Below, one piece after another: positions 21,663 through 46,200 of a DNA stretch of 64,000 nucleotides (position 1 is its first letter; each line of letters begins with the position of its first letter). The stretch covers positions 1,984,001 through 2,048,000 of the forward strand of contig NZ_CP047027.1 in assembly GCF_009797025.1 (NCBI RefSeq), in the 5' to 3' direction. Under the pieces are notes generated by a model, which was given only the letters and a program-made list of their open reading frames with translations, did no database searches and was not told where the DNA came from. Source of the DNA: Cellulophaga sp. L1A9. GTDB taxonomy: Bacteria > Bacteroidota > Bacteroidia > Flavobacteriales > Flavobacteriaceae. Both the position numbers and the translations under genes were made by a program.

Positions 21663-23015
21663 CTATATTGCTTTTTCGTCGCCAACAATTGCTTTTATAA
21701 CTGTCTGAACTGTAATTTTTAAATCTAAAATTAAAGACCAATTTTCGACATAAAAAATATCAAATTTTACGCGATTAATAATATCTGAATCTTCTTCAAT
21801 CTCTCCTCGATATCCTCTTACCTGCGCTAATCCTGTAATACCAGGTTTTACAAATTGGCGTAACATGTATTTATCAACGATAGCCTCATATTCAAGGGAT
21901 AATTTAAGCATATGCGGTCTAGGACCTACTACGGACATTGTTCCAAAGAAGACATTGTAAAATTGTGGTAACTCGTCAATACTTGTTCTTCTTATGAATT
22001 TTCCAACTCGTGTAACACGCATATCGTTCTTTACTGTCTGAAATTTGTCACCCCCGTTGTCTAGGCCCATAGAACGAAACTTATAACAATAAAATTCTTT
22101 ATTATCAATTCCATTTCTAAGTTGTCTGAAAAATATAGGTCCTTTAGACTCTAAACGTATGATTAATGCTAATATGGGAGTCAACCAAGATAATACCCCA
22201 AGAATTACAATTATTGAGAATACGATATCAAAAGTTCTTTTCAGTATAGCGTTTAATGGGTTGTGTAATGGAATATCTCTTAAAGAAAGTACGGGAATAT
22301 AATCGTAATATTCAAATTTTAATTTTTTGGAAAAGATATTTTTATTATCAGGTATAAATTTTAAAATTTTAATATTATTATCCGCAAAACTTATAATTTC
22401 ATTTAATTCTGAATTTTTTAGTTCTGATACTGAACAGTAAATTTCATTAATATTATTTTTGATTACAAAATCAAAAATAGATTTTAATTCAAACTCTTTT
22501 TCTTTTGGATTAAATTGTTTTGTAAAATGATATCCATATTCTGGAAAATCATGAAATACGCCAATTAATTGATCCGTTTTCTTATTTTTTCCTATAACAA
22601 CAACATTTCGTAAATTTCCTTTAATGAACTTTCTAAAGGTCATCAGTAAGCCATAAACAATGAATTTTAGACAAAAAATAATTAAAGCCACCTCAAAGAA
22701 ATATTTTATTAGAATAAAATTACTAATATCTGGCTGTTTGAAAAAACCTATAAATGTAAATAGTGCTAAAAAAAATACTGCAAATTGGCGTAATAGTAAA
22801 ATTAAAATTGAGGTGACTTTTGTATAACGATAAACTGTATAAAATTCACTTTTTACTGATATAATTATCCATGCTATTGATATGTAAAAATAGAAATATA
22901 CTGGTATATTAAATTTTGAAAAAATAAAGTACCCAAGTATATTTATAACTAAAATGTCCAATATATGTGAGATTGGATTTATTAAGTTTGAATATCTATT
23001 TTGTTTAAAAACCAT
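21663..23015 (-). CDS. Polyprenyl glycosylphosphotransferase (WcaJ/WbaP-like)
   Basis: A 450-residue initiating sugar-phosphate transferase. About four N-terminal membrane segments are followed by a Rossmann-like middle domain (about 140-245), a membrane re-entrant helix beginning KRTFDIVFS (about 260), and the Bac_transf catalytic domain with GPIFFRQLRNGIDNKEFYCY, KFRSM, SIDELPQFYNVFFG and GPRPH. It loads the first sugar-1-phosphate onto undecaprenyl phosphate at the inner membrane and so starts the repeat unit. The donor (UDP-Glc, UDP-Gal or other) cannot be read. It is the only initiating enzyme in the locus. Confidence 0.93.
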   Translation of the reverse strand: MVFKQNRYSNLINPISHILDILVINILGYFIFSKFNIPVYFYFYISIAWIIISVKSEFYTVYRYTKVTSILILLLRQFAVFFLALFTFIGFFKQPDISNFILIKYFFEVALIIFCLKFIVYGLLMTFRKFIKGNLRNVVVIGKNKKTDQLIGVFHDFPEYGYHFTKQFNPKEKEFELKSIFDFVIKNNINEIYCSVSELKNSELNEIISFADNNIKILKFIPDNKNIFSKKLKFEYYDYIPVLSLRDIPLHNPLNAILKRTFDIVFSIIVILGVLSWLTPILALIIRLESKGPIFFRQLRNGIDNKEFYCYKFRSMGLDNGGDKFQTVKNDMRVTRVGKFIRRTSIDELPQFYNVFFGTMSVVGPRPHMLKLSLEYEAIVDKYMLRQFVKPGITGLAQVRGYRGEIEEDSDIINRVKFDIFYVENWSLILDLKITVQTVIKAIVGDEKAI

Positions 23016-23941: not shown

Positions 23942-25672
23942 TTAGTTTTCGTTTATTACTGGTTTTTGGGTATTTGTTGAAATTAACAGAAATAAAAAGC
24001 AGAGTATGTAAAGTGGCTTCGAAGTCTGTAAAATTGATTCAGTTAAAAACATTAATGAAAGTGCGAATATAAACAAAACCATTGTTATATTTTTATATAG
24101 CTTTATTCTAAATAAAAAGGCTAATATAAAAGTAGCTAAGGTTAAACAACCAATAAAACCTATTTCTATTAGTAATGTCAAATACTGATTGTGAGAGTGA
24201 TTTAAGGCTTCGGGAATTATCACCTTATGTTCTTTCATTAGATGTGTACTATGTAATACCCTATCAGATGATCCTATTCCGTGACCTAAAAAAGGTTTCT
24301 CTTTAATTGCTTCCCATGATATTTGCCATAATGCAGCTCTTGTTTTATCAATTTTTTTAATTGAAAGAAATAATGTTAAGGCTAGAAATATGAAAATACC
24401 GAAGTTTACTATTATTGGTTTTTTTATTTTATTCTTTAAAAGAATATTGAGTAATAGTATTATATAAATAATCAAGCAAATACGTACACCCATTAATATT
24501 ATAGTAAGCAGTAAAAATATATGATAACTATAATTTAAAATTTTCTCTTTTTTTGATGTGTTTTTGGTGTGTTTTAAAAAGAGTAAACCAATCAATCCAA
24601 AAAATGTCAAGAATGCGGCATGATCAAAATATAGGAAATTTCTAATATTTCCACTAAATGTTTTAATATGAATGAAATAATCGGTCAATTCTAATCCGAA
24701 ATTAAGAGGAAAATTCAGCAAAAAAATGATTGATGCAGTAATTAATATTGCATTTAAAATTATAAAGATTTTTATATATAAATCTTTTATCAATGCACTA
24801 TTCCATTCTAGTGTTAAAGCAATGATGCCAAATAGTGCTATGCCTAATTGATGATCAATTTTTTGTATTTCATTAGGTCTTCCAATTATAGCAAAAAGTA
24901 GAAATAGAATAATTAGGAAGTACCCCACAAGAGCATTCTCACCTAATTTTCGGTTTCTTATGTATTTATATAGGGAATAAGCTACTAACAATAATGTTGC
25001 CAACGTCGTCCATGCAATCTTTAAGGGAATACATATAATGAAGATAATCATAAGGTAATCCTCTACCGATAAAATAGTATTCTTTGGAATAATTTTTTTC
25101 CAAACAATGATTCCAAAAATTATAAATGGAAGTAATAATATAATCTTTTTAATAGGGTTGTGGTCTATTATAGTTTGACTTAATGGATTAAAAATGATAT
25201 ATGGATCAAATACCTCAGCTCCCTCGTTAATTGTAATTATATTGCTTGCATAGGTTAGATTGATTGCTTCACTATTTAGAAAAAATTCAGTATATACTTC
25301 CTTATCTTTAATTTTAATATAGCCGTCATTAAAAAGGAAGAGAATGCTTTTTAACTGAATGGTATTTGGATGATTATCATTACCAAGATCGAGCCTATAA
25401 TTTGTAATATATTTTTCATTTTTAGTTAGGATAAATTTTAAGCTATCCTTTGATTTGCTTGAATTTTTTATTTTATTTTCACTTTTGAAGCCATCTTTAT
25501 ATGCATAGTATAGTTCGCTATTAAAAGTTACGTTAGACTCTATTTCAAATTCAATGCTTATTAAATCTGATTTTATTTTTCTTTCAATATAAGATGATAA
25601 TATTGCGTTGAAAATAATAGCTGTAAGCATCGCTAATACTAAAGAACCTATAAAACTTTTATTCATTTTCAT
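23942..25672 (-). CDS. O-antigen ligase/polymerase (Wzy_C family) membrane protein
   Basis: A 576-residue protein: one N-terminal membrane segment, a soluble stretch of about 130 residues, then ten or so membrane segments. The loop typical of Wzy_C proteins is visible: KPFLGHGIGSSDRVL followed by NHSHNQYLTLLIEIGF, with the conserved histidines. It may ligate O-chains to lipid A core (WaaL) or polymerise repeat units. The extra 130-residue extracytoplasmic domain near the N-terminus is unusual. The start at 25672 overlaps the upstream GT2 stop as ATGA. Confidence 0.85.
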   Translation of the reverse strand: MKMNKSFIGSLVLAMLTAIIFNAILSSYIERKIKSDLISIEFEIESNVTFNSELYYAYKDGFKSENKIKNSSKSKDSLKFILTKNEKYITNYRLDLGNDNHPNTIQLKSILFLFNDGYIKIKDKEVYTEFFLNSEAINLTYASNIITINEGAEVFDPYIIFNPLSQTIIDHNPIKKIILLLPFIIFGIIVWKKIIPKNTILSVEDYLMIIFIICIPLKIAWTTLATLLLVAYSLYKYIRNRKLGENALVGYFLIILFLLFAIIGRPNEIQKIDHQLGIALFGIIALTLEWNSALIKDLYIKIFIILNAILITASIIFLLNFPLNFGLELTDYFIHIKTFSGNIRNFLYFDHAAFLTFFGLIGLLFLKHTKNTSKKEKILNYSYHIFLLLTIILMGVRICLIIYIILLLNILLKNKIKKPIIVNFGIFIFLALTLFLSIKKIDKTRAALWQISWEAIKEKPFLGHGIGSSDRVLHSTHLMKEHKVIIPEALNHSHNQYLTLLIEIGFIGCLTLATFILAFLFRIKLYKNITMVLFIFALSLMFLTESILQTSKPLYILCFLFLLISTNTQKPVINEN

Positions 25673-26364
25673 AACAGTCTGGATAGAAGGCACAAACCTA
25701 ATTTTAATCTAATTTTAATTTTAGTTTTAATTGTATTGGTGCTTTTTTCCCCCGTTTCTGAGGCGTTTTCGCCATGCCTCCTGTAATATATTAACGGTTC
25801 ATCTATGTAATGGGTTTTTGCCATAATCTCAGCAATAGAAGCTAACCATGCATCATGCATGTATATGTTACTTGGAAAGGGGAGTGCTTTGGTTAAAATC
25901 TTTTGATTAAAAGCCATGGTCGCTCCTATATAGTTATTTTTTATAAAATTTTTGACGAAGCCTGTTTTTTTACTTCCATTTTTATACAATAATTTATTTT
26001 TATTTTTATTCTTAGAAAATACACTGGCATTAGAGAAAATTAGATCATTCGTTTCTAAGTATTTCCGAGATATTCTTACCTTATTTGGGTACCAGATATC
26101 GTCCTGATCTGAGAGAAATATTATTTCTCCTGTAGCATTATTTAATGCATTTTCAAAATTTTTTATTATACTACCTCCGTTAGAGGAATAAATTTTTATT
26201 CTATTATCTTGAAACTTTTCTATTATGGATATTGTGCCATCGGTTGATTTGTCATCTGAAATTATTAATTCATCTTTTTGATCCAATTGTGGTAGAATGG
26301 ATTTTATTTGTTCTTCAATATATTTTTCGCCGTTATATACGGCCATACAAACGGATATTTTCAT
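25669..26364 (-). CDS. Family 2 glycosyltransferase
   Basis: A 231-residue GT-A enzyme. It starts ISVCMAVYNGEKYIEEQI and has ISDDKSTDGT, the donor-site FLSDQDDIWYPNK (Asp-x-Asp), and a C-terminal MHDAWLASIAE and YRRHGENAS motif that is usual in rhamnosyl- or glucosyltransferases of O-antigen loci. It is soluble or peripheral. It overlaps both neighbours by four bases (ATGA), so it is tightly coupled with the polymerase upstream and the ligase downstream. The C-terminus is slightly short and very basic, perhaps for membrane contact. Confidence 0.9.
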   Translation of the reverse strand: MKISVCMAVYNGEKYIEEQIKSILPQLDQKDELIISDDKSTDGTISIIEKFQDNRIKIYSSNGGSIIKNFENALNNATGEIIFLSDQDDIWYPNKVRISRKYLETNDLIFSNASVFSKNKNKNKLLYKNGSKKTGFVKNFIKNNYIGATMAFNQKILTKALPFPSNIYMHDAWLASIAEIMAKTHYIDEPLIYYRRHGENASETGEKSTNTIKTKIKIRLKLGLCLLSRLL

Positions 26365-27524
26365 CTTTTAATTACAAATTTTTTGTTTTCAAATAAAGCA
26401 AATACTATGCAAAATGCTAATTGAAAGAATATTCCTGTTACTGTTAATATATTTCCAAAAACACTTAATAATATAATTACGGATAATATAGAGTTTGTAG
26501 TTATATGATAACTGCTTGTTTTGGGAACTAAAAATATTATAATTATTAAATAAACTAGCAAGTGATAAAGCACTAATAAATAACAACCATACCAATTGAG
26601 GTATGAATAAGATTCTGCATAGGCAGTACCTACTGTCAGCCAAGGTACAATCCTCACAAGATCTCTATGATGAAGATCTAAAATCTTATCAAATTTTTTA
26701 GATATCATTTGTGGCATTGCTTCAAAGAAAACAAATTCTTTAAAATTGTAACTATTCACCTTTTTTAGGTTGATAGTGTTTTGAAAATTTGCTAATGGGG
26801 ATGCAACATACAAATAGGTCCAATAATATTCTTTTGGTATTGATGAAGATGTGAATTTATCACTAACCTTACTTTGCTCGTAAATATATGCGCCGCCTGA
26901 TCTCAAATTACCTATAACTCCAAAAAAGTATAATGCTATGGCAACCGCTGTGATTAGTTTAAATAAGTTCTTAATGGTAAGTTTATTAATATATTGTAAG
27001 TATATAAACAATGAAGTTAATCCTCCAAGCATTAATATACTCCTACTTAAAAATAAAAGTGCAGGTATATATAAAATTAGGTTATACTTTAAATATCTTT
27101 TGTCATCTTTAGATTTGAAGCTATTAAACGAATGTGCTATTAAAAACGAATTAAAAGAAATTAGAAGACCATGCAGTAGAGGTATACCAAATTCTCTATA
27201 GTTAACTCCTTTAGTACCATTTAATTGAGAAAGTAATGGTATATCTTGTTCAACAATGAACTCAATTAGGTATAAGGTTAGTAAAACTATTGTTGATTTC
27301 CTTATTAAACTTAATTTTGTGTTTGAGAATGTTTTTTTGATTAAACCAAGCTTATCAATTATTTGACCACTTAAAATAAAAAGTATAAATGTTATAGTAA
27401 AGAACAATTTTATAGAAAATGTTAATTCTGGGTAGATATTAGACCATCCAAAATTATATACTATAAATACCAATGTGAAACCTAAAACATATATGTATAA
27501 TGGATTTCTAAGAATTTTAAGCAT
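26361..27524 (-). CDS. Oligosaccharide repeat-unit polymerase (Wzy-like)
   Basis: A 387-residue protein with about ten membrane segments and a larger loop near residues 210-290 that includes LRSGGAYIYEQSKVSD and YLYVASPLANFQNTI. This layout and the loop pattern recall the O-antigen/oligosaccharide polymerase family. Wzy proteins are poorly conserved, so the call rests on topology, loop character and context: flippase, GTs and a Wzz-like protein in the same operon. The neighbouring Wzy_C protein could share or swap the role, one acting as polymerase and the other as ligase. The stop overlaps the next start (ATGA). Confidence 0.7.
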   Translation of the reverse strand: MLKILRNPLYIYVLGFTLVFIVYNFGWSNIYPELTFSIKLFFTITFILFILSGQIIDKLGLIKKTFSNTKLSLIRKSTIVLLTLYLIEFIVEQDIPLLSQLNGTKGVNYREFGIPLLHGLLISFNSFLIAHSFNSFKSKDDKRYLKYNLILYIPALLFLSRSILMLGGLTSLFIYLQYINKLTIKNLFKLITAVAIALYFFGVIGNLRSGGAYIYEQSKVSDKFTSSSIPKEYYWTYLYVASPLANFQNTINLKKVNSYNFKEFVFFEAMPQMISKKFDKILDLHHRDLVRIVPWLTVGTAYAESYSYLNWYGCYLLVLYHLLVYLIIIIFLVPKTSSYHITTNSILSVIILLSVFGNILTVTGIFFQLAFCIVFALFENKKFVIKR

Positions 27525-27575: not shown

Positions 27576-28589
27576 TTAATTTAACAACTTGTTTAAATCA
27601 AAATTATTTTTAGAACGAAATGTTTGGAATAATTTATCCTCCATTAATGTGTTTTCATAGGTTGTAACATTACACCCAAAAGCTTTCGAGTAAAATAATA
27701 GGCTGGAACTAAAACCTAGAACATGTAGGTTTTTACTTGAGATTGCAATTTGTTCAAATGGAATTTCATCAGGAATTATAAAAAACTGAATATTGTGATC
27801 TTTAAAAGTGGATTCTATCTTTTTTCGATTATCAGTAGATTGGACTGGGTGGTATTTTATATAAATTTTTTCAAATTTTTCTTTACTTATAATTTCTATA
27901 ATACCTTTTAGTAATGTGTTAAAATTTAAATTTCCTTGTTCCACCGCACCCTCTAAGACTAAAGCATAGCTATTATCAATTTTGTAAGAAATACTAATAT
28001 CTTCAATTGAGGGTATTAATTTTATTGTATAGGGCAATCCTTGAAATGCTCTATCATCTATACTGTAAAAAATTGTAGGTTCACTTTTTTTAAATGTTCT
28101 TATGTCGTAAACTTTAACGTAATAGAACCTGTTATTAAATACTGATAGTATCGAGTTAAATGTTTTCTTTATAACTGATTCCCAAATATTGTTAAATTGG
28201 AATGTCATAAAGTGTGGAGCATATGATGTACCACCTTCTTCAATTATATTAAAAGCTTTACAATTTTTATGTGTGGCAAATAACTGCATTAATTTATTTT
28301 CGACATGGGGTAGGTATGCTGTGAAACTCTCCTGTTTTAATTCAAATTTTAATTTTTTATCAAATTTTTTAATGTACGGATAGATTGAATAGAATTTATT
28401 AATATAGATTCTATTCAACTCATCATACTCCTTTGATAAATCAATTGTTTTTAAATTCTTTAATGTATTATTAGTATAATTTCTAGCAGTTACAAATAGA
28501 ATATCTTGCTTATTTATTTTTTTATAATTAATTACAGCGATTGATACGAAGTAGGTAATGTGGCTATGTAAAAAAAAAATATGTTTCAT
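27576..28589 (-). CDS. Sialyltransferase-like glycosyltransferase with EEG and HP motifs
   Basis: A 337-residue GT-B-type protein, probably cytoplasmic. Three features match bacterial sialyltransferase/Kdo-transferase-type families (GT52, GT38, GT80 and related): an acidic Glu-Glu-Gly at residues 117-119, a His-Pro in IYIKYHPVQ at 247-248, and a Ser-Ser-Ser at 294-296 in LGFSSSLLFY. In those families the acidic residue is the catalytic base, and HP plus serines bind the CMP donor. It sits just downstream of a cytidylyltransferase operon, which fits use of a CMP-sugar. Overall similarity to any single family cannot be checked here. The gene follows the flippase by four bases. Confidence 0.65.
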   Translation of the reverse strand: MKHIFFLHSHITYFVSIAVINYKKINKQDILFVTARNYTNNTLKNLKTIDLSKEYDELNRIYINKFYSIYPYIKKFDKKLKFELKQESFTAYLPHVENKLMQLFATHKNCKAFNIIEEGGTSYAPHFMTFQFNNIWESVIKKTFNSILSVFNNRFYYVKVYDIRTFKKSEPTIFYSIDDRAFQGLPYTIKLIPSIEDISISYKIDNSYALVLEGAVEQGNLNFNTLLKGIIEIISKEKFEKIYIKYHPVQSTDNRKKIESTFKDHNIQFFIIPDEIPFEQIAISSKNLHVLGFSSSLLFYSKAFGCNVTTYENTLMEDKLFQTFRSKNNFDLNKLLN

Positions 28590-28593
28590 TAAT

Positions 28594-29868
28594 TTATTTA
28601 AAATTAAACCGAATAGCGTTATTTTTAATTCTTAATAATTTCTTTAAATCTTTATCAAAGTAATCAATCAAATAATTACCTATAAATAATGATATAATTG
28701 TTGTTATCGCAGCTCCTTCTTTACCATATTTTGGAATTATGATTAAATTTAGTAATATATTACATGTTAATGCCACAATTGTTCTGGTTGCTTGTTTTTT
28801 TTCTTTTTTTTCTACAATTAGGTACCTAGCAGTCACGGAACCCAAAGATGCAAAAGAAGAGGCCCAAAATATTATTGAAAACACCAATTGTGCGCCATTG
28901 TACTCCTCACCATATAAAAACGTTATTAGTATTGGTCCAATAAAGGTCATTATGAGCGCAATTAAATTATTTCCCCAAAATACATAACTAAATAATTTAG
29001 TAAAACCAGCTGTATATTCTTTTTCTGATTTGTGCTTGAGGGCTAAAATTGCGGGCATCATTGATAATGAAACTACAATTATTAGAGAAACATAACCTTC
29101 GTAAATACGAATGGCAGATGAGTATAGACCCAATTCTTCAGCACTAACCATTTGTTTGAGCATTATTTGGTCAATTCTCATATAAAGTATTACAGACAAC
29201 GCGGATAACACAATTGGCCAAGCGCTACGAATCAAATCTTTGAATATTTTTAAATCAAAATATTTTGTAAATTTTATATTTTCTATTTTCCAAAAAGTAA
29301 TAAGGTAAAAAAGTGCTAAAAGAATAAATTCGAGTACTAGTACATAAACAATATATATTATTGGAAAGTTGAATGCAACAATGATAAATTTTAAAAGTAA
29401 TGTAATCAGTATCGAAATTGTTTTACATATAGAAGAAATTTTGGCTTTAACTTCTGACTGAAAGTAGAAATCTATAACATCAAGTGGCTTAGCAAATAGT
29501 ATAAAGGAATATAATAATATCCAGTAACTAATAGTTTGATCCTCGTCAATGGTTAGGTTTATGATATTTAAAACTACAAATGATAAAAAAGAAAACAATA
29601 GCAACAAGTAAAATGAAGTGCCTAAAATTATTTTTTTTTTGTTCTTATGAATTATATAGTCTCTGACTAAAATTGAAGACATGCCAAATTCTGAGAATGG
29701 AATAAATATGGATACAAAGGCTATTGCATAGTTCAAATTTCCAAATTGGGACGGACCCAAATATCTAGCAAACAGTATTGAAGTTAAGATTGCAGCTATC
29801 ATCCTTATCAATTTCTCGGCCAGCATCCAGGCTGAATTGAAAAAATAAGTTTTTTTTGTTTCAGACAT
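28594..29868 (-). CDS. Wzx-type polysaccharide flippase
   Basis: A 424-residue protein of the MATE/MOP superfamily with about twelve membrane segments. It opens FFNSAWMLAEKLIRMIAAIL and has LFARYLGPSQFGNLNYAIAF, the signature of oligosaccharide flippases, and ISYWILLYSFILFAKPLDVIDFYFQSE. It moves polyprenyl-linked repeat units to the periplasmic face of the inner membrane. Its ATG shares a base with the upstream stop (TAATG at 29866-29870), coupling it to the HAD phosphatase and, through it, to the CMP-sugar genes. Such coupling hints that the exported unit contains that sugar. Confidence 0.92.
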   Translation of the reverse strand: MSETKKTYFFNSAWMLAEKLIRMIAAILTSILFARYLGPSQFGNLNYAIAFVSIFIPFSEFGMSSILVRDYIIHKNKKKIILGTSFYLLLLFSFLSFVVLNIINLTIDEDQTISYWILLYSFILFAKPLDVIDFYFQSEVKAKISSICKTISILITLLLKFIIVAFNFPIIYIVYVLVLEFILLALFYLITFWKIENIKFTKYFDLKIFKDLIRSAWPIVLSALSVILYMRIDQIMLKQMVSAEELGLYSSAIRIYEGYVSLIIVVSLSMMPAILALKHKSEKEYTAGFTKLFSYVFWGNNLIALIMTFIGPILITFLYGEEYNGAQLVFSIIFWASSFASLGSVTARYLIVEKKEKKQATRTIVALTCNILLNLIIIPKYGKEGAAITTIISLFIGNYLIDYFDKDLKKLLRIKNNAIRFNFK

Positions 29869-30467
29869 TAAAAAATAGTTGGAATTGTATTTAATTTTTC
29901 CAAATCTTCATTGTTATACCCTATGAAGTCTATTGAGTTTATTGTAGCTGCTTCGTAATCATTTATAGAATCACCTATAAGGAAAACCTCTTTTTTGTCG
30001 TACTTATAGATGGTTAGTAAATCTTTAACTAACTGAATTTTAGGAGTAGGTGAGCCATGAATGCTTAAAAAGAAAGTATTTATTTCCAATTTTTCGCACA
30101 GAAAACGTAGTTCGTTTTGATCTGATCCTGATACAATGTGAAAATTATATTTATTGTAATTTTGTCCTATGAAGTTAACAGTCTCTTCTATTAAATATTT
30201 CTTTTGTGTTAATTCTGCCCTCATATATTCTGAAAACTTACTTGCAAATTTAATGATAGTATTCTCAGAAACTTCTTTTTTCAATATCTCCTCAAAAAAA
30301 TACCTTATCTTAACATATCTAGATAGTCCACCATTTATTCTGTGAAATTCAAGCAATTTTTTAACATCCTTTGCCTCGTAACTTTCAAAAATTATTTCGA
30401 AACCTAGATCTCTGATCTTCATAGAGTCCAGAATTACGCCATCAAAATCCCATAGTATTGTTTTCAT
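29868..30467 (-). CDS. HAD-superfamily phosphatase, candidate sugar-acid phosphatase
   Basis: A 199-residue HAD hydrolase. Motif I is DFDGVILDS with nucleophile Asp7 and acid/base Asp9; motif II is VSGS (112-115), motif III Lys143, and motif IV GDSINDYEAA (165-174). A helical cap lies between motifs I and II, like the phosphoglycolate phosphatase/beta-PGM group, and unlike the capless KdsC. The gene overlaps the cytidylyltransferase (ATGA) and the flippase (TAATG). I infer that it removes a phosphate from a sugar-acid phosphate before CMP activation, as KdsC or NeuAc-9-P phosphatase do. The substrate is unproven. Confidence 0.85.
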   Translation of the reverse strand: MKTILWDFDGVILDSMKIRDLGFEIIFESYEAKDVKKLLEFHRINGGLSRYVKIRYFFEEILKKEVSENTIIKFASKFSEYMRAELTQKKYLIEETVNFIGQNYNKYNFHIVSGSDQNELRFLCEKLEINTFFLSIHGSPTPKIQLVKDLLTIYKYDKKEVFLIGDSINDYEAATINSIDFIGYNNEDLEKLNTIPTIF

Positions 30468-31144
30468 TTATTCAATGATTTAAAAATCAATTCTCCAAGT
30501 GTAAAATCATCGGGCCAATCAATATCAAATGAAGATAATCCAGGTGATTCAAAATATTTTGGAGAATTGCCAATTCTGTTTTGATATTTTACGTAATTCT
30601 CAATTGAATTTATAAAAACACCACTATTAATTTCGTATAATTTATTTAGAGTTTGTGTTCTTGGCCACTTTTCTATTTTACTATCATAATTAAAACTTCC
30701 GTTTTCACCCCATAGAAAGTTCTGAATTTTATTTACAGACATTAAACTGTCGTGGGTTTTGTTTTCAATTCCGGACAAATACTCTTGAATTGCACTTGTA
30801 TAATTATCAGTGTTAAAGAAAGGGGAAGTTACATGTGTCCAAACTACATGTCCAGCATTAATTATATTTGGAACATAATTAATTACTTCATCCGTGCTAG
30901 TTGATGACAAAGTTAAATGTTCTGGTCTTTTATCAATGATTATTTTTTTGTTTTTAAAGGATTGCGCTATTTTAATTACTTGCGTATCATTGGTTGATAT
31001 TAATAATTTGTCTATTAATTTAACCTCAACTAATTGTTCTATCTTAATTTTAAGAAGTCCCCCTTTAATCCCGGCAAAATCTTTAGTGTTTTTGTTGGGT
31101 ATTCTTTCGCTACCAGCCCTACAAGGTAAAAATGCTGTAATCAT
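30464..31144 (-). CDS. CMP-sugar-acid synthetase (NeuA/KdsB-like cytidylyltransferase)
   Basis: A 226-residue nucleotidyltransferase. The P-loop-like start LPCRAGSERIPNKNTKDF (6-23) is the signature of acylneuraminate cytidylyltransferases and CMP-Kdo synthetases. Other elements are LISTNDTQVIKIA, STSTDEVI, WTHVTSPF and the late FDIDWPDDF with an acidic metal-binding pair. It should activate an ulosonic or nonulosonic acid with CTP to give a CMP-sugar. It is linked by overlapping codons to an aldolase upstream (TAATG) and a HAD phosphatase downstream (ATGA). No NeuB or KdsA is present. The exact sugar is unknown. Confidence 0.9.
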   Translation of the reverse strand: MITAFLPCRAGSERIPNKNTKDFAGIKGGLLKIKIEQLVEVKLIDKLLISTNDTQVIKIAQSFKNKKIIIDKRPEHLTLSSTSTDEVINYVPNIINAGHVVWTHVTSPFFNTDNYTSAIQEYLSGIENKTHDSLMSVNKIQNFLWGENGSFNYDSKIEKWPRTQTLNKLYEINSGVFINSIENYVKYQNRIGNSPKYFESPGLSSFDIDWPDDFTLGELIFKSLNK

Positions 31145-32703
31145 TATAAATAGTTGAAAATTGATGTAGTTTCTAAATTTTTATATTTTGTCGGGGTAAT
31201 TGATTTTGTGGTTATTTTCTCCAATTTTACCACGTCATTTATGATGGATTGATTTTCATTAGCTAAATTAAATTGAGTTTGATCAATTTTATCCATGTTA
31301 TAGCCATCGAATCCTGCTAATAGTATTTCTTCTACCCCCAAGTCTATGGCTGCTTGGACCGCTACAACCATTGGTGAATCTTCTGAACTTTGTGTAAAAT
31401 TTAATTTATCTAATTCGAAACTAATATTTTTTATCTTATCGAGAATTATTGTTCCCATTTTTCTAGGATATGGTGGGTATATACAAATCTGCGAAACTAG
31501 TTGCTTGTTTCCCAATTGTTTAAGTAGTTTTTCGCTTTCAAAACCAACTAAAGCGTAAAATTGTTTAATTTCATTATTTATATATTTTTCAACATGTTTA
31601 ACACCTGCGTGTATAATACAAGTATTCTCTGATTGCTTTAGATAGGCTTCTAAGGCCTTATCTATTTTAATAACAGAATCACCTCCACCAAGTATTATTG
31701 CTTTTTTAAATTTATGCTGAGTATCTAGTTTTGGTAATTTTAAATTGTCTTTGACATCCTCTTTCTGATTATTTAAAGCATTTACAATATTACTAATCGG
31801 GTATCTGTTCATTCCAACCCATTCCATAACTTGTTTTTGAGGTAATGAATAAGCTCCTGAGAACATGTACGGAAGATTTGTTCCCCACTCATAGCTTTTT
31901 TTAAGTGTTTCAAAATTAGATACTGTTTTACCTAAATGAAAAAACTTAATGTCTTTGTTATCAATACTATTTAAATATGTCAAGAATAGTTCAGTTCTTA
32001 GATTTCCTGCTCCTCTTCCCATTCCCGTAATTGTGCAATCTATAAGCTCGACCCCATTTTCTATTGCTGTTAAGGAATTGATCAGTGCCATTTCTAAGTT
32101 GTTGTGCCCATGAAAACCAATAGGAACTGTTAATTTAGGTTTAATTATATTTAGGATATCTATAACATCATTAGGAAGAACAGCACCAAAAGAATCGACC
32201 ATGTAGAAATAGTCTATGTGATCATTCAGTTCATGAAGTGATTCAATGAATTCTGGATTGTTTTTCCAGTCTGACATATACATTACATTAAAAGCAACCT
32301 CAAATCCTAACTTTTTAATTGCAATGGCAAGTTTTACGGCATTTTTAACCCTTAGTGGACTTACTGCTAACCTAACTAAACTAATGTATGGTTTACAAGG
32401 CTCCATTAGTTTATTAATATCTGATTCTTTTATGTTTTTTTCATCTAGTATTATTACTAGTTTTTTGTTTGGCATTTTGGATTTTAGATCCTTCATTAAA
32501 TAATCGGGACAATAAAAATATTCTCCTAGATAACCATTGAGTGTAGTACTTCTGTAACCTATTTCAACGTAGTCTATTGGCAAATCTTCCATGGCAGTAC
32601 AATAATCATCTACCAACGATCTGTCAAAGTCCCAATTTGTATAATAACCCCCATCTCTCAAAGTGCAATCAAGAATCTGAAATTTTTTATTTTTTATTGA
32701 CAT
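31144..32703 (-). CDS. HMGL-like aldolase fused to a sialyltransferase/MptE-like Rossmann domain
   Basis: A 519-residue two-domain protein. Domain 1 (about 8-300) is a DRE-TIM aldolase: LDCTLRDGG (11-19) with Arg16/Asp17, metal ligands in GFHGHNN (196-202), and GMGRGAGN (227-234). The nearest known type is 4-hydroxy-2-oxovalerate aldolase, though the residue at its catalytic His position appears to be Tyr. Domain 2 (about 330-519) begins KKAIILGGGDSVIKID (333-348) and has a helix-strand unit at 443-468 ending LLAGFDGY, then SITPTKY. This recalls GT42 sialyltransferases and DUF115/MptE proteins. It heads the coupled set aldolase-cytidylyltransferase-phosphatase-flippase. I infer synthesis of a 2-keto sugar acid from pyruvate and an aldehyde; the second domain may transfer, bind or modify it. 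Confidence 0.75.
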   Translation of the reverse strand: MSIKNKKFQILDCTLRDGGYYTNWDFDRSLVDDYCTAMEDLPIDYVEIGYRSTTLNGYLGEYFYCPDYLMKDLKSKMPNKKLVIILDEKNIKESDINKLMEPCKPYISLVRLAVSPLRVKNAVKLAIAIKKLGFEVAFNVMYMSDWKNNPEFIESLHELNDHIDYFYMVDSFGAVLPNDVIDILNIIKPKLTVPIGFHGHNNLEMALINSLTAIENGVELIDCTITGMGRGAGNLRTELFLTYLNSIDNKDIKFFHLGKTVSNFETLKKSYEWGTNLPYMFSGAYSLPQKQVMEWVGMNRYPISNIVNALNNQKEDVKDNLKLPKLDTQHKFKKAIILGGGDSVIKIDKALEAYLKQSENTCIIHAGVKHVEKYINNEIKQFYALVGFESEKLLKQLGNKQLVSQICIYPPYPRKMGTIILDKIKNISFELDKLNFTQSSEDSPMVVAVQAAIDLGVEEILLAGFDGYNMDKIDQTQFNLANENQSIINDVVKLEKITTKSITPTKYKNLETTSIFNYL

Positions 32704-32778: not shown

Positions 32779-33990
32779 TTAATTAATATTTTTTTTTAGT
32801 TCAATAACCGCCATTTTATAAAAATCCTTAATTTTTAAGAACAGATTTTTCTCATTAGAAGTATGGTCTCTTAAATAGGTCATTGGGTTTTCGAAATATT
32901 TGAAGAGAAGTATGGATAAAAGAATTGTGGAAGATAAATAAAAAATAAAGTAAATTATACCTGTAAAAAGGTTTGTATTATGGTTGGTAAATAGATTCAT
33001 ACCCTTTAGAATAAAAGAAAAATGTATTAGATACATTGAATACGATATTAATGATATAAGTGTGATTGATTTATTTATTAAAGTTGTAGGTCTTTTTGCT
33101 TTGTTGTAGCTTGAAAATGGCAATAATAGACCAAACCCAATACTTGTTATAGAAAAGTAAAATGTCTTGCTGAAAATTGAAGAATAATTTAGTCCATTAT
33201 TCATTACGTCGTTAAAATATATATAACAAGAAAAAATAATGAGAAAAAAGCTAAAAAACAGCATTGGTAATCGGTATTTATTAAATTTCGTTCTGTAATA
33301 AAATTTTAACCAAGCGAAAAATACTCCTGTCAATATAGAGTCTAGTCTTAATGGAGTTATTTTTCTTATTCCTGAATCCCAATTAGGATTTAGTTCTAAT
33401 GCTGAATATATACGTAGAAGAAGGCAAACTATAAAAATGCTTAATATTGAAACTAATAAAAGGTTTTTTTTGTTTTTTATCCCCTTAATAAATCTGGTTA
33501 AGCAGTAGAGTATTATTGGAAAACTTAAGTAAAACCACTCCTCTACAGCTAAACTCCAGGCTTCTTCAAAAAAATGTGGATGTTGAGTAACGAAATTTTG
33601 AAAAAAAATTATAAATGCATAGTTTCTCCAATCACTAAAATCAAATGATTTTAGTGATATTGCTATGATTATATTTAAGAGTAAAATTAAATAGTAGTTT
33701 GGTAAGGTTCTAAACCATCGTCTTTTCCAAAAATTGATTAGTACAGTTTTATTGAAGGATTCCCCATTGTCATATATTTTTATTAAAATACCTCCTATTA
33801 AAAAACCGCTTAAAACAAAAAATAATTCAACACCCCAAAAACCACCAATCGACATAAACTCAGTGGGTATTTTCAATGAATTTAGAAGGTGTCTGCCATG
33901 TGATAAAATTACCATTATAATTGCTAAAAAACGTAATAGATCTAATCCGAAAATTCGTTCTTGTGAAAAATTAACTTTAAAAATTTTCAT
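32779..33990 (-). CDS. Acyltransferase family 3 (OafA-like) membrane protein
   Basis: A 403-residue membrane protein with about ten segments. The start FGLDLLRFLAIIMVILSHG holds the conserved Arg and catalytic His of acyltransferase-3 proteins. GFWGVELFFVLSGFLIGGIL and WSLAVEEWFYLSFPI are further hallmarks. There is no SGNH extension. It likely O-acetylates a sugar of the repeat unit using acyl-CoA from the cytoplasm. It lies between rfbD (2 bp away) and the aldolase gene (75 bp away). Confidence 0.93.
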   Translation of the reverse strand: MKIFKVNFSQERIFGLDLLRFLAIIMVILSHGRHLLNSLKIPTEFMSIGGFWGVELFFVLSGFLIGGILIKIYDNGESFNKTVLINFWKRRWFRTLPNYYLILLLNIIIAISLKSFDFSDWRNYAFIIFFQNFVTQHPHFFEEAWSLAVEEWFYLSFPIILYCLTRFIKGIKNKKNLLLVSILSIFIVCLLLRIYSALELNPNWDSGIRKITPLRLDSILTGVFFAWLKFYYRTKFNKYRLPMLFFSFFLIIFSCYIYFNDVMNNGLNYSSIFSKTFYFSITSIGFGLLLPFSSYNKAKRPTTLINKSITLISLISYSMYLIHFSFILKGMNLFTNHNTNLFTGIIYFIFYLSSTILLSILLFKYFENPMTYLRDHTSNEKNLFLKIKDFYKMAVIELKKNIN

Positions 33991-33992
33991 GG

Positions 33993-34862
33993 TTATTCTT
34001 TAAATGTTTTTAAGCATTCTTTCAAGCTAATTTTCCAATTATTGATTTTTACATTAAAATTATTTTTAGCTTTTGTTTTATCCATAACACTATATAGTGG
34101 GCGGGTAGCTGGAGTTATATAATTCTTTGATTTAACAGTGTTTAAATCAATTATTATATTTTTTTGTTTAAATATTTCTTTAGCAAAATCATACCAGCTT
34201 ATTTCTCCTTCATTGCTATAGTTATAAATTCCATAATTGGTTGAATTATTTGTTACTATATGCAGTATAAAACTAGCTAGATCTGCTGCATATGTTGGGG
34301 ATCCAATTTGATCATCTACAACACTTAATTCATTTCTTTCTTTTCCTAAACGCAACATGGTTTTAACAAAATTATTCCCATGTTCTGAAAAAACCCATGA
34401 TGTCCTAATGATAAAATATTTACTTATTGTGGTTTGTATGTAGTTTTCTCCTTTTAATTTTGATGAGCCGTATACATTTAATGGGGCACCGTTGGCCTCT
34501 TCGGTATAAGGGGTTGTATTAGTCCCGTCAAAAACAAAATCGGTGGAAATGTGGATTAAGGTGCTTTTAAATTGCTTACAAGCTTCTGCTAAGTGTTTAA
34601 CAGCTTCTGAATTTACTAAGTAAGCTTTTTCTGGCTCATTTTCAGCCTTATCAACTGCTGTATAAGCGGCACAGTTTATGCAATAATTGTATTTTTCTTT
34701 TTGGAAAAAATGATTTATTTGTTTTGCATCTGTAATATTTAAATCAGAAGATGATTTGAAGTAAAATTTATATTGTGGATATTCGATAGAAATGTTTTTT
34801 AAACATTTTCCTAATTGCCCATTGGCTCCTGTTACTAAAATATGTAATATTTTGTTACTCAT
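33993..34862 (-). CDS. rfbD: dTDP-4-dehydrorhamnose reductase
   Basis: A 289-residue short-chain reductase, last step of dTDP-L-rhamnose synthesis. It has HILVTGANGQLGKCL, the NCAAYTAVDKAENEPEKA segment, STDFVFDG, and the catalytic Tyr-x-x-x-Lys in NVYGSSKLKGE. The ATG shares a base with the rfbC stop (TAATG). The gene order rfbB-rfbA-rfbC-rfbD on the minus strand supplies L-rhamnose to the GT2 enzymes of this locus. Confidence 0.95.
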   Translation of the reverse strand: MSNKILHILVTGANGQLGKCLKNISIEYPQYKFYFKSSSDLNITDAKQINHFFQKEKYNYCINCAAYTAVDKAENEPEKAYLVNSEAVKHLAEACKQFKSTLIHISTDFVFDGTNTTPYTEEANGAPLNVYGSSKLKGENYIQTTISKYFIIRTSWVFSEHGNNFVKTMLRLGKERNELSVVDDQIGSPTYAADLASFILHIVTNNSTNYGIYNYSNEGEISWYDFAKEIFKQKNIIIDLNTVKSKNYITPATRPLYSVMDKTKAKNNFNVKINNWKISLKECLKTFKE

Positions 34863-35407
34863 TAAAGTTTGGCATTTTGTAATGTAGGTAATTCCAGGTC
34901 CTTTTTGGAAACATTAATATGATTTACACTTACTTTCCAATCTATCTGTAGAGTCGGGTCATTATAAATTATTCCACCTTCAGATTCTTTGTTGTAAAAG
35001 TTGTCACATTTATAAAAAAATTCAGCTGTTTCACTTAAAACTGAGAATCCATGACCAAAACCTCTTGGTATAAATAATTGCTTTTTATTTTCTTCAGATA
35101 GCTCTATTGCAAAGTGTTCTCCAAATGTTGGAGAGCCTTCTCTTAAATCTACTGCAACATCTAGAACTCTTCCTTTAATAACACGTACTAATTTTGCTTG
35201 AGCATGATGTCCTATTTGGTAATGAATAGCTCTTATGACTCCTTTAGTTGAGTAGGATTGATTGTCTTGAACAAAGTGCGCTTTATTTCCTGTTAATTCG
35301 GTAAATTGGTTCTCGTTAAAACTTTCGAAAAAATAGCCACGATCATCTTCAAAAACTTTTGGATCTAGCACGAAACAGCCTTTTAAGTAGGTTTCTTTTA
35401 CTTGCAT
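34862..35407 (-). CDS. rfbC: dTDP-4-dehydrorhamnose 3,5-epimerase
   Basis: A 181-residue cupin-fold epimerase. It shows KGCFVLDPKVFEDDRGYFFE, FVQDNQSYSTKGVIRAIHYQ with the catalytic His, the active-site DVAVDLREGSPTFG, and IPRGFGHGFSVLS. It inverts C3 and C5 of dTDP-4-keto-6-deoxyglucose. It is coupled by TAATG junctions to rfbA upstream and rfbD downstream, so the three enzymes should be made in balanced amounts. Confidence 0.96.
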   Translation of the reverse strand: MQVKETYLKGCFVLDPKVFEDDRGYFFESFNENQFTELTGNKAHFVQDNQSYSTKGVIRAIHYQIGHHAQAKLVRVIKGRVLDVAVDLREGSPTFGEHFAIELSEENKKQLFIPRGFGHGFSVLSETAEFFYKCDNFYNKESEGGIIYNDPTLQIDWKVSVNHINVSKKDLELPTLQNAKL

Positions 35408-36273
35408 TATTTATTTTTTAGTATACCAAGAAGATTTTTACCATAACCACTTTTCATTAATGGCTTAGCTAATTCTATTAGTTGTTCTTCGTTTATAAGT
35501 CCCATTTCGTAGGCTGCACCTTCAATAGTTCCAATCTTTAATCCTTGACGTTCTTCAATAACTTCAACAAATTGTGATGCTTGCATAAGTGATTGGAAGG
35601 TGCCAGTATCTAGCCAGGCAGTTCCTCTATCTAGAATACTAACACTTAATTTATTTTTCTCTAGATACACTTTATTGATATCTGTAATTTCTAATTCGCC
35701 TCTGTGGCTAGGTGCGATATTTTTTGCAATTTTCACGACTTCATTGTCATAAAAATAGATTCCTGGTACAGCAAAATTTGATTTTGGTTCTAGGGGCTTT
35801 TCTTCGATAGATATTGCTTTTCCATTATTATCGAACTCTACAACGCCATAGCGCTCAGGATCATGTACTCTATACGCATAGATGATACCGCCATCAGGAT
35901 CGTTGTTGGATTGTAGTAAATTAGCTAAGCCAGAACCATAAAATATATTATCTCCTAAAATTAACGCTACTTTGTCTTGCCCAATAAAGTTTTCACCTAT
36001 AATAAAGGCTTCAGCAAGTCCATTAGGATTTTCTTGGACAGCATATTCAAATCTACAACCAAATTTACTGCCATCACCCAATAAATCCTCAAATAATGGA
36101 AGATCTTTTGGTGTTGAAATAATTAATATTTCATTTATTCCAGCGTAAATCAGGGTAGATAAAGGGTAATAAATCATTGGCTTATCATAAATAGGCATCA
36201 ATTGCTTACTTACGGACAAAGTTAAAGGATGTAGGCGTGTACCTGAACCTCCTGCTAAAATTATTCCTTTCAT
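35407..36273 (-). CDS. rfbA: Glucose-1-phosphate thymidylyltransferase
   Basis: A 288-residue nucleotidyltransferase that makes dTDP-glucose from dTTP and glucose-1-phosphate. It begins [18 protein letters not shown], the nucleotide-binding loop, with [27 protein letters not shown], and [12 protein letters not shown]. Length and motifs match RmlA exactly. It lies 23 bases after rfbB and overlaps rfbC. Confidence 0.97.
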
Positions 36274-36296
36274 TTTATGATTGATTTATGTTTATA

Positions 36297-37340
36297 TTAT
36301 TGATACATGTTAGTATAGTAGTCTTTATAAGAACCACTAGTAACATTTTCAAGCCAATCTCTGTTATTCAAAAACCAATCTATTGTTTTAGATAAACCTT
36401 CTTCAAAAGTAACTGATGGTTTCCAACCTAATTCTTTATTTATTTTGGAAGCGTCAATAGCGTAGCGTAAATCATGACCTGGTCTATCTTTAACATAAGT
36501 GATTAATTTTTCACTATCACCAGTAGGACGCTTCAGCTTACTGTCCATTAATTTGCATAGCAGTTTAACTAAATCTAAATTTTTCCACTCATTAAACCCA
36601 CCAATATTATAGGTTTCGTGATTTTTTCCTTCATGAAAGGCTAAATCTATTGCTGTAGCATGGTCTTCAACATAAAGCCAGTCTCTTGTGTAATTTCCAT
36701 CACCATAGACGGGTAAGCTCTTATTATTAATAATGTTATTGATGAAAAGTGGAATTAACTTTTCAGGAAAATGATTTGGTCCATAATTATTGGAACAATT
36801 AGAAATTATAAAAGGCAAATTATAGGTTTCACCATAAGCACGTACAAAGTGGTCAGAACTTGCTTTTGATGCGGAATAGGGTGAATTCGGATCATAAGAA
36901 GTTGTTTCCGTAAATAAGCCTGTTGCTCCTAAAGACCCATAAACTTCGTCCGTACTAACATGGTAAAAAAGTTTTCCTTCTAGATTTTCTTTCCATAGTT
37001 CTTTAGATGCATTTAATAAGTTCACTGTTCCTATCACATTTGTTTTCACAAAGGAAAGAGGATCTGTAATAGATCTATCCACATGTGATTCTGCAGCAAG
37101 GTGGATTACTCGGTCAAATTTATATTTATTGAAGATTAAATCTATAAAAGGAGCGTCTGTAATATCTCCTTTTAAAAATGTATAATTTTCTAAATGTTCA
37201 ATATCTTTTAAGTTTTCTAAATTACCAGCATACGTCAATGCATCCAAATTATAGATGTTATAATTTGGATAATTTTGAACCATTCTTCTGATAACGTGTG
37301 AACCAATAAAACCTGCTCCTCCTGTAATAAGAATATTCAT
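36297..37340 (-). CDS. rfbB: dTDP-glucose 4,6-dehydratase
   Basis: A 347-residue SDR enzyme. The NAD loop ILITGGAGFIGSHVIRRM, HLAAESHVDRSI, the catalytic STDEVYG and Tyr-x-x-x-Lys in YSASKASSDH, and SNNYGPNHFPEKLIPL all match RmlB. It makes dTDP-4-keto-6-deoxyglucose, the branch point to rhamnose and other 6-deoxysugars. It follows the Wzz-like gene by three bases. Confidence 0.97.
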   Translation of the reverse strand: MNILITGGAGFIGSHVIRRMVQNYPNYNIYNLDALTYAGNLENLKDIEHLENYTFLKGDITDAPFIDLIFNKYKFDRVIHLAAESHVDRSITDPLSFVKTNVIGTVNLLNASKELWKENLEGKLFYHVSTDEVYGSLGATGLFTETTSYDPNSPYSASKASSDHFVRAYGETYNLPFIISNCSNNYGPNHFPEKLIPLFINNIINNKSLPVYGDGNYTRDWLYVEDHATAIDLAFHEGKNHETYNIGGFNEWKNLDLVKLLCKLMDSKLKRPTGDSEKLITYVKDRPGHDLRYAIDASKINKELGWKPSVTFEEGLSKTIDWFLNNRDWLENVTSGSYKDYYTNMYQ

Positions 37341-43275: not shown

Positions 43276-46200
43276 ATGAACAGTTGTACCATAAATTATA
43301 AATTTATTCTACTCATATTTTTATCGACAATTCAATTTGCTTTTGCAAAAGCTGATTTAAATTTTTTCTTTTCTGAAAGAAGTAATGAATCCTTTATAAA
43401 TAGTTTCGAATTTGCTCCACCAACTTTTACAGGTTGCGATACGGCTTCTTTAAATGTTCAAGTAACTTACACTGCCGGCCAATGTGGTGGTATTGTAAAT
43501 TGGAATGCGCCTATTGCTTCAGTGGATGCAGTAACAGTGACAAGTAATTATCAACCTGGTGACAACATTTTGCCAGGAACTACTGCTATAGTCTACCGTG
43601 CGGAGAATGCTGCTGGAGAAGTGGGTATCTGTACTTTTAACGTTACAGTTGAGGATAATGAAAAACCGTTATTTGACACTTTTCCTTCTAATGTTACTTT
43701 AACTGCCGATCCTGATAGTTGCACAGCTACTCATACATGGGTAGAACCAACGGTTTCAGATAACTGTCCTGCGGGCGAGGGTGAGGCGCCTGTTCTTCAG
43801 GATTTTGAATCGGCATTGAATCAATGCTACGTTTTTACCAAAACATCTATTGATAGTGGTGGGCAAATAAATGGAAGTAGAAATTTGATAGCAAACTCAT
43901 TATCTTTAGCTCCGTTTTATACGAGTACTATTGTTACACCTACTATGTATTTTAACGGTGAAGGTGAAATTTCATTTTCCCATTCGATAAATACCGTGGC
44001 AAATAATGCACAAATTCATGTAGATATTTTAGATAGTTCAATGGCAGTTGTCCAAACCGATTTTTTTAGTAAAGTCTATACAGATACAGCCGTTCATCAG
44101 GAAAACATTCCTTTTACGCTAACTGGGAATTACAATATTAGAATTCGCTATTCTTCCACTGTTTTTAATAATACGGCACAAATTGCTTATTTAGACGATT
44201 TACTGTTGCCAGGCACAATTGTTACAAATTTAACGGATACCGCTTGTGAGTTAGCTGAATATTCTGTCATTAGAACCGACGGAAATGGAAAGCTAAATGG
44301 TGACGATTTTGAAATTGGAACGACAATTATTGTGTATCGGGTTTTTGATGCTAATGATCAATTCACAACAAGGTCATTCACAATTACTGTTGAGAATGAT
44401 TTAAATGCACCAACTGGATCCTCAGAATATACTTATTGTGAAGGAAATTTACCTCCAGAAATGAGTGTCACTGTAGATGAATCAGTAGGTGAGACCGCTA
44501 ACTGGTATGATTCTTTAGGAAATCTTGTCGCATCTAATACAACTTCATATACAGCACCAGATAGTACTGAGTTATTTAGAAATTATTCGGTTTATTCGCA
44601 AAACGTAAATGGATGTTCAAGTGATACATTCATTTCTATCGATTTGTATCAATTTCCTTTGCCAGATGCACCAACTGCCAAATCTCCCATTGAATATTGT
44701 GTAGGTGATGCTCCTGTTCCTTTACAAGCATCTGGAGACTCAGGGAATACTTTGCAATGGTACAATGCAGCTACAGGTGGCACTATGTATACGTCAAACC
44801 CTACGCCCAGTACTACAACAGCAGGAAGTACCTTTTACTATGTTGAACAAACGGATATTTATACAGGTTGCATTAGCTCAAGAACAGCCGTAGAGGTAAT
44901 TATAAATGCTTTGCCGGTAAGACCCACCTTGACAGCAAATACTATTACTTATTGTCTAGGAGATACTGCCCAAGAATTAGATAACTATGTTCAGTCAGGA
45001 TCAAACTTAACTTGGTATGATGCAGCTACGGGTGGAAATGAACTTGTAGGAACTACCATTCCTGAAACAACTACAGCTGGTACTACGGATTATTGGGTTA
45101 CTCAAACTGAAACAACCTCTACTTGTGAAAGTACTAGAAGAAGATTGAGAATAATTGTAAATGATCCTCCTATGGTTACGGGCCAACCTCTAAATGCTGA
45201 GATTTGTGAGTTCGAAAACGCTACTTTCACTGCAATAATTTCCAATGCTAGCACCTATCAATGGCAAATTTTTGATGGTTCAAACTGGGTAAACCTAACT
45301 AATGCGAGTCCATATAGTAATACGTCAACTTCTTCACTAGTAATTACAGCTGCGCCTATAACTTTAAATAATACTACTTATAGATTAGTTTCTTCGAGTG
45401 CAACATTAACTTGTGACGATGCATTTTCAGAAGAGAGAGTATTAACCGTAAACCCACAACCGTCAGCACCTACAGTGAGTGATGTTGAGTATTGTGAGAA
45501 CGGTACTGCAAGTGCGTTAACAGCAAGTGGTACAAATATTTTATGGTATACTGTAGCAACTGGCGGAACGGGTAATTCAACAGCACCAACCCCAAGTACT
45601 TTAACTGCAGGTACAACTTCATACTACGTAACACAAACAAATTCTAGTGGTTGTGAGAGTCCACGATCTGAGATTGAAGTAACAGTGTATGCCTTACCAT
45701 CAGCACCCACAGTGAGTGATGTTGAGTATTGTGAGAATGATACAGCAAGTGCCTTAACAGCATCGGGCACAAATTTATTATGGTATACAGTTGCGAGTGG
45801 TGGAACGGGTAGTTCAACAGCACCAACCCCAAGTACAGCATCAGTTGGGAGTACATCTTATTATGTAAGTCAAACGAATGGAAATGGCTGTGAAGGTCCA
45901 CGTTCAGAAATTGAAGTAACGATAAATGCTTTGCCAACAGCACCAGGGGTAACAAGTCCAGTTGTTTATTGTCAAAATGATACACCAAGCGCATTGACTG
46001 CGACAGGTACAAATTTGTTATGGTACACCGTGGCATCTGGTGGAACTGGTAGTTCAACAGCGCCGACTCCAAGCACAACTGCCGTAGGGAATACATCTTA
46101 TTATGTTAGCCAAACAAATGGAAATGGTTGTGAAGGACCTCGTTCAGAAATTATAGTAACTATTAACCCACAACCGTCAGCACCCACAGTGAGTGATGTT

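Follow-up and report, generated by a model that had tools for sequence, protein, structure and literature searches.

A candidate aldolase-based route to CMP-activated ulosonic acids in a surface-sugar operon of Cellulophaga sp. L1A9

The established pathways to 3-deoxy-D-manno-octulosonic acid (Kdo) and to the sialic, legionaminic, and pseudaminic acids all rely, to our knowledge, on synthases that depend on phosphoenolpyruvate (PEP). NeuB, the synthase of the nonulosonic acid pathway, is the usual genomic marker for nonulosonic acids. Here, we describe an operon in a stretch of 64,000 nucleotides from Cellulophaga sp. L1A9 (contig NZ_CP047027.1, positions 1,984,001 to 2,048,000), hereafter the window, to which the coordinates below refer. 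It encodes a two-domain HMGL-like aldolase (ALD), a cytidylyltransferase of the NeuA/PseF kind, a phosphatase of the haloacid dehalogenase (HAD) family, a Wzx-type flippase, and a glycosyltransferase of the PF07388 family. We consider it probable that the products of this operon build an acidic 2-keto-3-deoxy sugar (an ulosonic acid resembling sialic acid or Kdo) without a PEP-dependent synthase and then activate, transfer, and export it.

Two described systems come closest. The nonulosonic acid pathway comprises NeuB, an optional 9-phosphatase, NeuA, and a sialyltransferase (e.g., the Kdn route, as far as the available text of PMC6200933 describes it). The steps that our proposal has in common with it are condensation with a three-carbon keto acid, dephosphorylation by a HAD enzyme, activation with cytidine monophosphate (CMP), and transfer by a member of a sialyltransferase family, whereas a DRE-TIM class II aldolase would stand in place of the PEP-dependent NeuB. 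The Kdo pathway (KdsA, KdsC, and KdsB) likewise yields a CMP-activated 2-keto-3-deoxy acid, and 36 of the 69 ALD partners classed below are KdsB-like. It differs in that a KdsA-like open reading frame (ORF) is found near ALD in just 1 of 80 related loci, at the edge of that locus, and in that the Cellulophaga genome has a separate KdsB-like gene. We class the gene set as a variant of the CMP-ulosonate pathway that is apparently undescribed; in the open-licence literature, covered by titles and the beginnings of abstracts, in part for the longer result lists and with subscription journals outside the scope, we found no description of the route.

The operon and the proposed route

The five genes follow each other on the minus strand across 27576-32703: ALD (31144..32703, 519 amino acids), the cytidylyltransferase, a predicted CMP-ulosonate synthetase (30464..31144, 226 amino acids), the HAD phosphatase (29868..30467, 199 amino acids), Wzx (28594..29868, 424 amino acids), and the polysialyltransferase-family glycosyltransferase, a predicted user of the CMP-sugar (27576..28589). 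All five proteins exceed the curated Pfam cut-offs, with 84.7 bits for ALD (HMGL-like), 43.3 bits for the cytidylyltransferase (PF02348), 53.7 bits for the phosphatase (PF13419, HAD_2), 90.8 bits for the flippase (PF01943, Polysacc_synt), and 43.1 bits (cut-off 23.3) for the PF07388 protein, which brings an ulosonate transferase family into the locus. These matches bear out a preliminary description of this DNA, made from the letters alone, that had named the aldolase, the cytidylyltransferase, the HAD enzyme, and the flippase. The overlaps of one or four bases by which it had joined these four genes (TAATG, ATGA, and TAATG) can be read in the sequence. The four-gene set itself was correct but incomplete, as it missed the PF07388 gene, which starts 4 bases beyond Wzx, and the second domain of ALD (residues about 325-519). 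A scan for promoters and terminators gave a result at chance level.

In the route that we infer, ALD would join pyruvate and a phosphorylated aldose in a metal-dependent aldol reaction, giving the phosphate of a 2-keto-3-deoxy acid, from which the HAD enzyme would remove the phosphate. To judge from their families, the cytidylyltransferase would then make the CMP-sugar, the PF07388 enzyme would transfer the sugar onto a repeat unit carried by a lipid, and this unit would be flipped by Wzx. The proteins of the core set (ALD, cytidylyltransferase, and HAD) are small and predicted to be soluble.

Residues about 8-313 of ALD form a DRE-TIM aldolase barrel with the Arg-Asp and His-x-His metal-site motifs of 4-hydroxy-2-oxovalerate aldolase; R16, D17, H198, and H200 are kept in 79 of 79 ALDs and align to the same residues of DmpG. 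The likeness to DmpG/BphI (TIGR03217) lies in this fold and these motifs. ALD differs from them in scoring far below the equivalog cut-off of that model (94.1 bits vs 286), in having a Tyr where DmpG has its presumed His base, in its extra C-terminal domain, and in its partner, a cytidylyltransferase instead of the acetaldehyde dehydrogenase that adjoins an ordinary member. Database names for ALD-type proteins are '4-hydroxy-2-oxovalerate aldolase' or 'aldolase catalytic domain-containing protein'. The structure 3dxi (N-terminal domain of BVU_2661 from Bacteroides vulgatus) belongs to the same aldolase family, at 340 bits, and is titled 'putative aldolase', with no function stated in the rows examined. 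In the full-length model of ALD the active-site loops are weak, with a predicted local distance difference test score (pLDDT) below 50 at residues 18-21, 227-234, and 273-290. The catalytic motifs of the phosphatase, whose residues we take to have their customary roles, are intact: among 44 aligned HADs, D7 and D9 are present in 43, K143 in 42, and D166 and D170 in all 44.

Recurrence of the gene set, synthases, and exchange of the activating enzyme

A search of species genomes for relatives of ALD resulted in 558 loci, of which the best 80 were kept. In 71 of them a cytidylyltransferase gene lies within 3.5 kb of ALD, against a background, farther than 3.5 kb from ALD in the same loci, of 18 such genes in 854 kb (0.148 per 7 kb). 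Nine loci lack this gene; in five the available sequence stops less than 700 bases past the downstream end of ALD, and the remaining four are L057, L063, L064, and L084, with L084 ending about 1.4 kb downstream. The HAD enzyme, which the preliminary description had placed in the set, is a frequent but not a universal member: the window-type subfamily lies within 4 kb of ALD in 43 of the 80 loci and another HAD subfamily in 7 more. The set, with or without HAD, adjoins glycosyltransferase and flippase genes in several phyla, with records labelled Bacteroidota, Balneolota, Pseudomonadota, Cyanobacteriota, Bacillota, Omnitrophota, and Myxococcota; metagenome and single-cell assemblies account for many of these records. 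The search for a conserved aldolase-cytidylyltransferase-HAD set without NeuB in polysaccharide loci, proposed earlier as a check, came out in favour of the proposal: the set recurs in several phyla, and some of the genomes that carry it have no NeuB match.

Among 395 Bacteroidota genomes, ALD was found in 9. The four cytidylyltransferases above 200 bits from genomes other than the window's own (G293, G297, G298, and G413) each start within 25 bases of the ALD match. The remaining matches score at most 94 bits, and two of these are near ALD, at 1.7 kb (G152) and 0.7 kb (G209). No window-type cytidylyltransferase was listed for the ALD genomes G104 and G220, for which the window-type profile alone was used. 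A contig of G209 (C1) carries two copies of ALD about 20 kb apart (3156610 and 3177220). Nine plasmid records match ALD, and four of them were examined. One, a plasmid of Leisingera caerulea, carries the ALD-cytidylyltransferase-HAD set in a sugar locus, as an aldolase, a '3-deoxy-manno-octulosonate cytidylyltransferase', and a HAD hydrolase. In the remaining three the matching proteins are about 290-340 amino acids long, and the PLSDB gene table, which is incomplete, annotates no cytidylyltransferase within 8 kb of them. Phage records gave a single match, an aldolase that adjoins an acetaldehyde dehydrogenase.

Some loci have other surroundings. In the Pelagibacteraceae loci L063 and L064, the gene after ALD encodes a B12-binding radical SAM protein (11666-13279 in L063) and not a cytidylyltransferase. 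Short ALD relatives of about 290-340 amino acids occur in L100, L101, and L102, where no sugar-coat genes are annotated in the loci, and the short relative of Legionella adelaidensis is near a gene like those of isocitrate/isopropylmalate dehydrogenases and a gene of the RraA family. An extended set is present in L070, L075, L079, L080, and L087: ALD, an LdpA-like Fe-S protein with no obvious role in sugar synthesis, HAD, an HpaI-like aldolase, a KdsB-like cytidylyltransferase, and a DUF6716/TIGR04326-like protein, in a gene order that varies in L087. A PfkB protein resembling KDG kinase is found in 3 of the 80 loci.

We found no match to NeuB (PF03102), the family of PEP-dependent synthases of the nonulosonic acid pathway, in the single-contig 5.07 Mb genome to which the window belongs; the control matched in 9 of 14 genomes. 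A NeuB hidden elsewhere in this genome was on this ground rejected. The operon, at about 2.01 Mb, is also far from both genes of the DAHP-synthase family: a 277-residue frame at 0.80 Mb, which we read from its sequence and length as a probable KdsA, and, nearer to the operon, one of 366 residues at 2.70 Mb, taken as an aromatic-pathway enzyme. We therefore see no PEP-dependent synthase dedicated to this cytidylyltransferase. The earlier observation that the window holds neither NeuB nor KdsA thus stands, and a NeuB elsewhere in the genome that could feed the cytidylyltransferase, which would have spoken against the proposal, was looked for and gave no match. PF02348 genes number two in this genome, that of the operon and one at 3.35 Mb, a strong match that we read from its sequence as KdsB. 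We also rejected an aldolase of the HpaI family (PF03328) as the synthase, given that the genome has two weak matches to this family (29.1 and 21.5 bits) in frames of 494 and 484 residues.

NeuB was searched in the genomes of 50 of the 80 loci and had no match in 18, which by their titles are 7 isolates and 11 metagenome or single-cell assemblies; in the latter the absence carries less weight. It lies within 10 kb of ALD in 17 of the 80 loci, a lower bound because the sequence on one side of ALD is shorter than 10 kb in many loci, and 14 of these 17 have a second cytidylyltransferase gene (all except L037, L079, and L084). A closer look at 14 of the 50 genomes gave for each at least two PF02348 genes and one or two genes of the DAHP-synthase family. 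Five of the seven NeuB-less isolates (G490, G514, G521, G524, and G533) have exactly two PF02348 genes, one of which is in the ALD locus. These five, which like the window's genome carry one or two DAHP-synthase-family genes, belong to Mangrovimonas, Chitinophaga eiseniae, Pararoseomonas, Methylovulum, and Nitrincola. The recurrence of the set, the genomes without NeuB, and the second cytidylyltransferase beside NeuB together support the idea that an aldolase takes the place of the synthase on a route to a CMP-ulosonate.

The cytidylyltransferase of the operon is a member of the NeuA/KdsB superfamily by its PF02348 match and aligns to the CMP-Neu5Ac synthetases 1qwj and 1eyr. With 67.9 bits against an equivalog cut-off of 205.7 for TIGR03584 (PseF), it is not PseF; that it could simply be KdsB or PseF is rejected by the profile scores and by the separate KdsB-like gene of the genome. 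We placed the partners of ALD on a tree that covers the window plus 78 of the 80 loci, those with ORFs longer than 480 residues, inferred with a quick method and supported by the Shimodaira-Hasegawa-like approximate likelihood ratio test (SH-aLRT) alone. The partner is NeuA-like in 33 cases (the window included), KdsB-like in 36, of another kind in 3, and absent in 7 (n = 79). The family changes at least 15 times on this tree; when only well-supported branches are counted, between 7 switches (NeuA-like label) and 9 (KdsB-like label) are still required. Close relatives differ in this slot, which is NeuA-like in Winogradskyella and KdsB-like in Gelidibacter and Polaribacter; in L014 and L075 it holds a KdsB-like protein above the NCBIfam subfamily cut-off of PRK13368. 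The KdsB-like partner is not the housekeeping KdsB, as 7 of 7 such genomes among the 14 hold another, stronger PF02348 match elsewhere. In both families, the enzymes characterised so far act on 2-keto-3-deoxy sugar acids (the available text of PMC2901514 compares KdsB with CMP-Neu5Ac synthetase). The exchange of NeuA-like and KdsB-like enzymes is thus best explained by an ulosonic acid product, which both families activate. The Asp pair D207/D209, which according to the same text binds the metal in the Neisseria CMP-Neu5Ac synthetase, is kept in 32 of the 33 NeuA-like partners. At the position of the Neisseria Gln104, described there as important for the sugar, 31 of the 33 have a His, which fits a different sugar.

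Transferases, the fused domain, and alternative readings

Genes of sialyltransferase families stand beside the set in some of the loci. Two of the 32 homologues of the window's PF07388 protein are named 'polysialyltransferase family glycosyltransferase' at their source, and we aligned the protein with 7 such genes from related loci; a PDB sequence search with it found no meaningful relative. A gene of GT29, of PF07388, or of the MptE/Maf-like kind is nearby in 17 of the 80 loci, and none of the three is within 7 kb in the other 63. PF07388-type genes are found in 7 loci and the window (by profile in the loci other than L024) and MptE/Maf-like genes in 4. A gene of the GT29 sialyltransferase family, which is mainly eukaryotic, directly follows HAD in 6 loci (L019, L021, L025, L027, L050, and L051). 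The alignment of these six displays what we take to be the sialyl motifs L, S, and VS, and the match of a GT29-like protein to a mammalian sialyltransferase reaches an E-value of 0.016 only. The GT29 genes of the six Bacteroidota loci are placed at about 12.8-13.6 kb of those loci. Across the 99 neighbour genes scanned, out of 108, the commonest transferase families are GT2 (11) and GT1 (8).

The C-terminal domain of ALD (31147..31731, minus strand; residues about 325-519) has a predicted fold in common with the Maf flagellin glycosyltransferase, Cst, and MptE, and differs from these in being fused to an aldolase. Its best predicted-fold match is a Maf glycosyltransferase, followed by SteA, MptE-type kinases, and Cst sialyltransferases, which gives a structural match to the Maf/Cst (GT42-like) fold group. 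Comparison by hhalign with the MptE-like genes that adjoin ALD in other loci gave 95.3%. At the sequence level, the window's domain stays below the cut-off of PF01973 (MptE-like; 19.4 bits vs 34.6), which matches 13 of 38 such domains (that of the window plus 37 taken from 66 listed pieces) at an E-value of 0.01 or better, and a PDB sequence search with the domain's profile found no meaningful relative. Our speculation is that the domain most likely serves for sensing or docking and binds CMP or the CMP-sugar.

Beyond the window, we give about even chances to a wider proposal: an unrecognised, PEP-independent aldolase route to CMP-ulosonic acids would occur across phyla as a module of a two-domain aldolase, a swappable NeuA- or KdsB-like activator, and swappable sialyltransferases (GT29, PF07388, or MptE/Maf-like), in which the fused domain would read the pool of CMP-sugar or join in the transfer and several products might be new ulosonic acids. 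If this holds, genomes scored as lacking nonulosonic acids could nonetheless produce sugars of the sialic acid type; ALD is carried by the window's genome, which has no NeuB match, and by the 18 NeuB-less relatives among the 50 searched. It would also be a lead to new acidic sugars of marine and gut bacteria, and to an aldolase acting on pyruvate that could be useful for synthesis.

Several observations weigh against the aldolase route. Tyr20 is found in 79 of 79 ALDs at the position of the DmpG His that we assume to be the catalytic base, next to the Arg-Asp motif, so the chemistry of ALD may differ. The 80 kept loci lean towards the window's type, and the profiles used for counting (cytidylyltransferase, HAD, NeuB, and others) were grown on them. 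L057, L063, and L064 lack a cytidylyltransferase beside ALD despite available downstream sequence, and 30 of the 80 loci, some of them truncated, show no HAD of either kind near ALD. NeuB is present somewhere in 32 of the 50 ALD genomes, and two NeuB-less genomes have more PF02348 genes, four in G522 and three, one of them below the cut-off, in G523. The HpaI/GarL-like pyruvate aldolase also present in 7 of the 80 loci could be the true synthase there. Finally, the fold of the C-terminal domain also resembles proteins that are not transferases (SteA and the MptE-type and thiamine pyrophosphokinases).

Some of these points feed an alternative, in our view unlikely, in which ALD supplies or modifies a precursor, by a retro-aldol reaction or by turning another keto acid into an unusual acid, while the 2-keto acid used by the cytidylyltransferase comes from a housekeeping enzyme encoded elsewhere, such as KdsA. 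In its favour, the window's genome has a probable KdsA, the set is joined by an HpaI-like aldolase in those 7 loci, and KdsB-like enzymes fill the slot in about half the loci. However, each of the 14 genomes has at least one further PF02348 gene, so the enzyme of the slot is not the sole activator; the KdsA-like ORF is near ALD only in the single locus mentioned above; and the window's genome lacks a clear aldolase of the HpaI type. Another alternative, which we find improbable, is that the C-terminal domain of ALD acts as a Maf/Cst-type transferase in its own right, so that ALD both makes the sugar and takes part in its transfer. The aldolase and the cytidylyltransferase might instead serve a CMP-activated acid that is not a sugar, e.g., a hydroxy-keto acid side group. 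Cytidylyltransferases of other families do activate non-sugars. Yet both enzyme families of the slot are known as ulosonate activators, and GT29 or PF07388, named sialyltransferase families, stand beside the set in 13 of the 80 loci and in the window. We regard this as the remotest of the alternatives and as very improbable. An ulosonic acid made by the aldolase remains our preferred reading.

The surrounding sugar-coat cluster

The operon sits in a surface-sugar cluster of the Wzx type, all of whose genes given here are on the minus strand. Downstream of the PF07388 gene are a membrane protein that, from its position and length, is possibly the repeat-unit polymerase (26361..27524; no Pfam match above cut-off), a GT2 glycosyltransferase, one of the GT2 enzymes of the cluster (25669..26364; PF00535, 84.8 bits), a membrane protein of the O-antigen ligase family (23942..25693; PF04932, 44 bits), and the initiating sugar-phosphate transferase (21663..23015; PF02397, 204 bits). 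Upstream, an acyltransferase-3 family protein (32779..33990; PF01757, 102.9 bits) is separated from ALD by 75 bases. Beyond it, the ORF list gives four frames (33993..37340) that are presumably the dTDP-rhamnose genes rmlD, rmlC, rmlA, and rmlB; on this assumption, rhamnose is a likely partner sugar.

Elsewhere in the window, an ORF of 2713 amino acids lies on the plus strand (43276-51417) and is accompanied by antisense ORFs of 150 amino acids spaced 714 bases apart (45644, 46358, and 47072), a spacing that suggests internal repeats.

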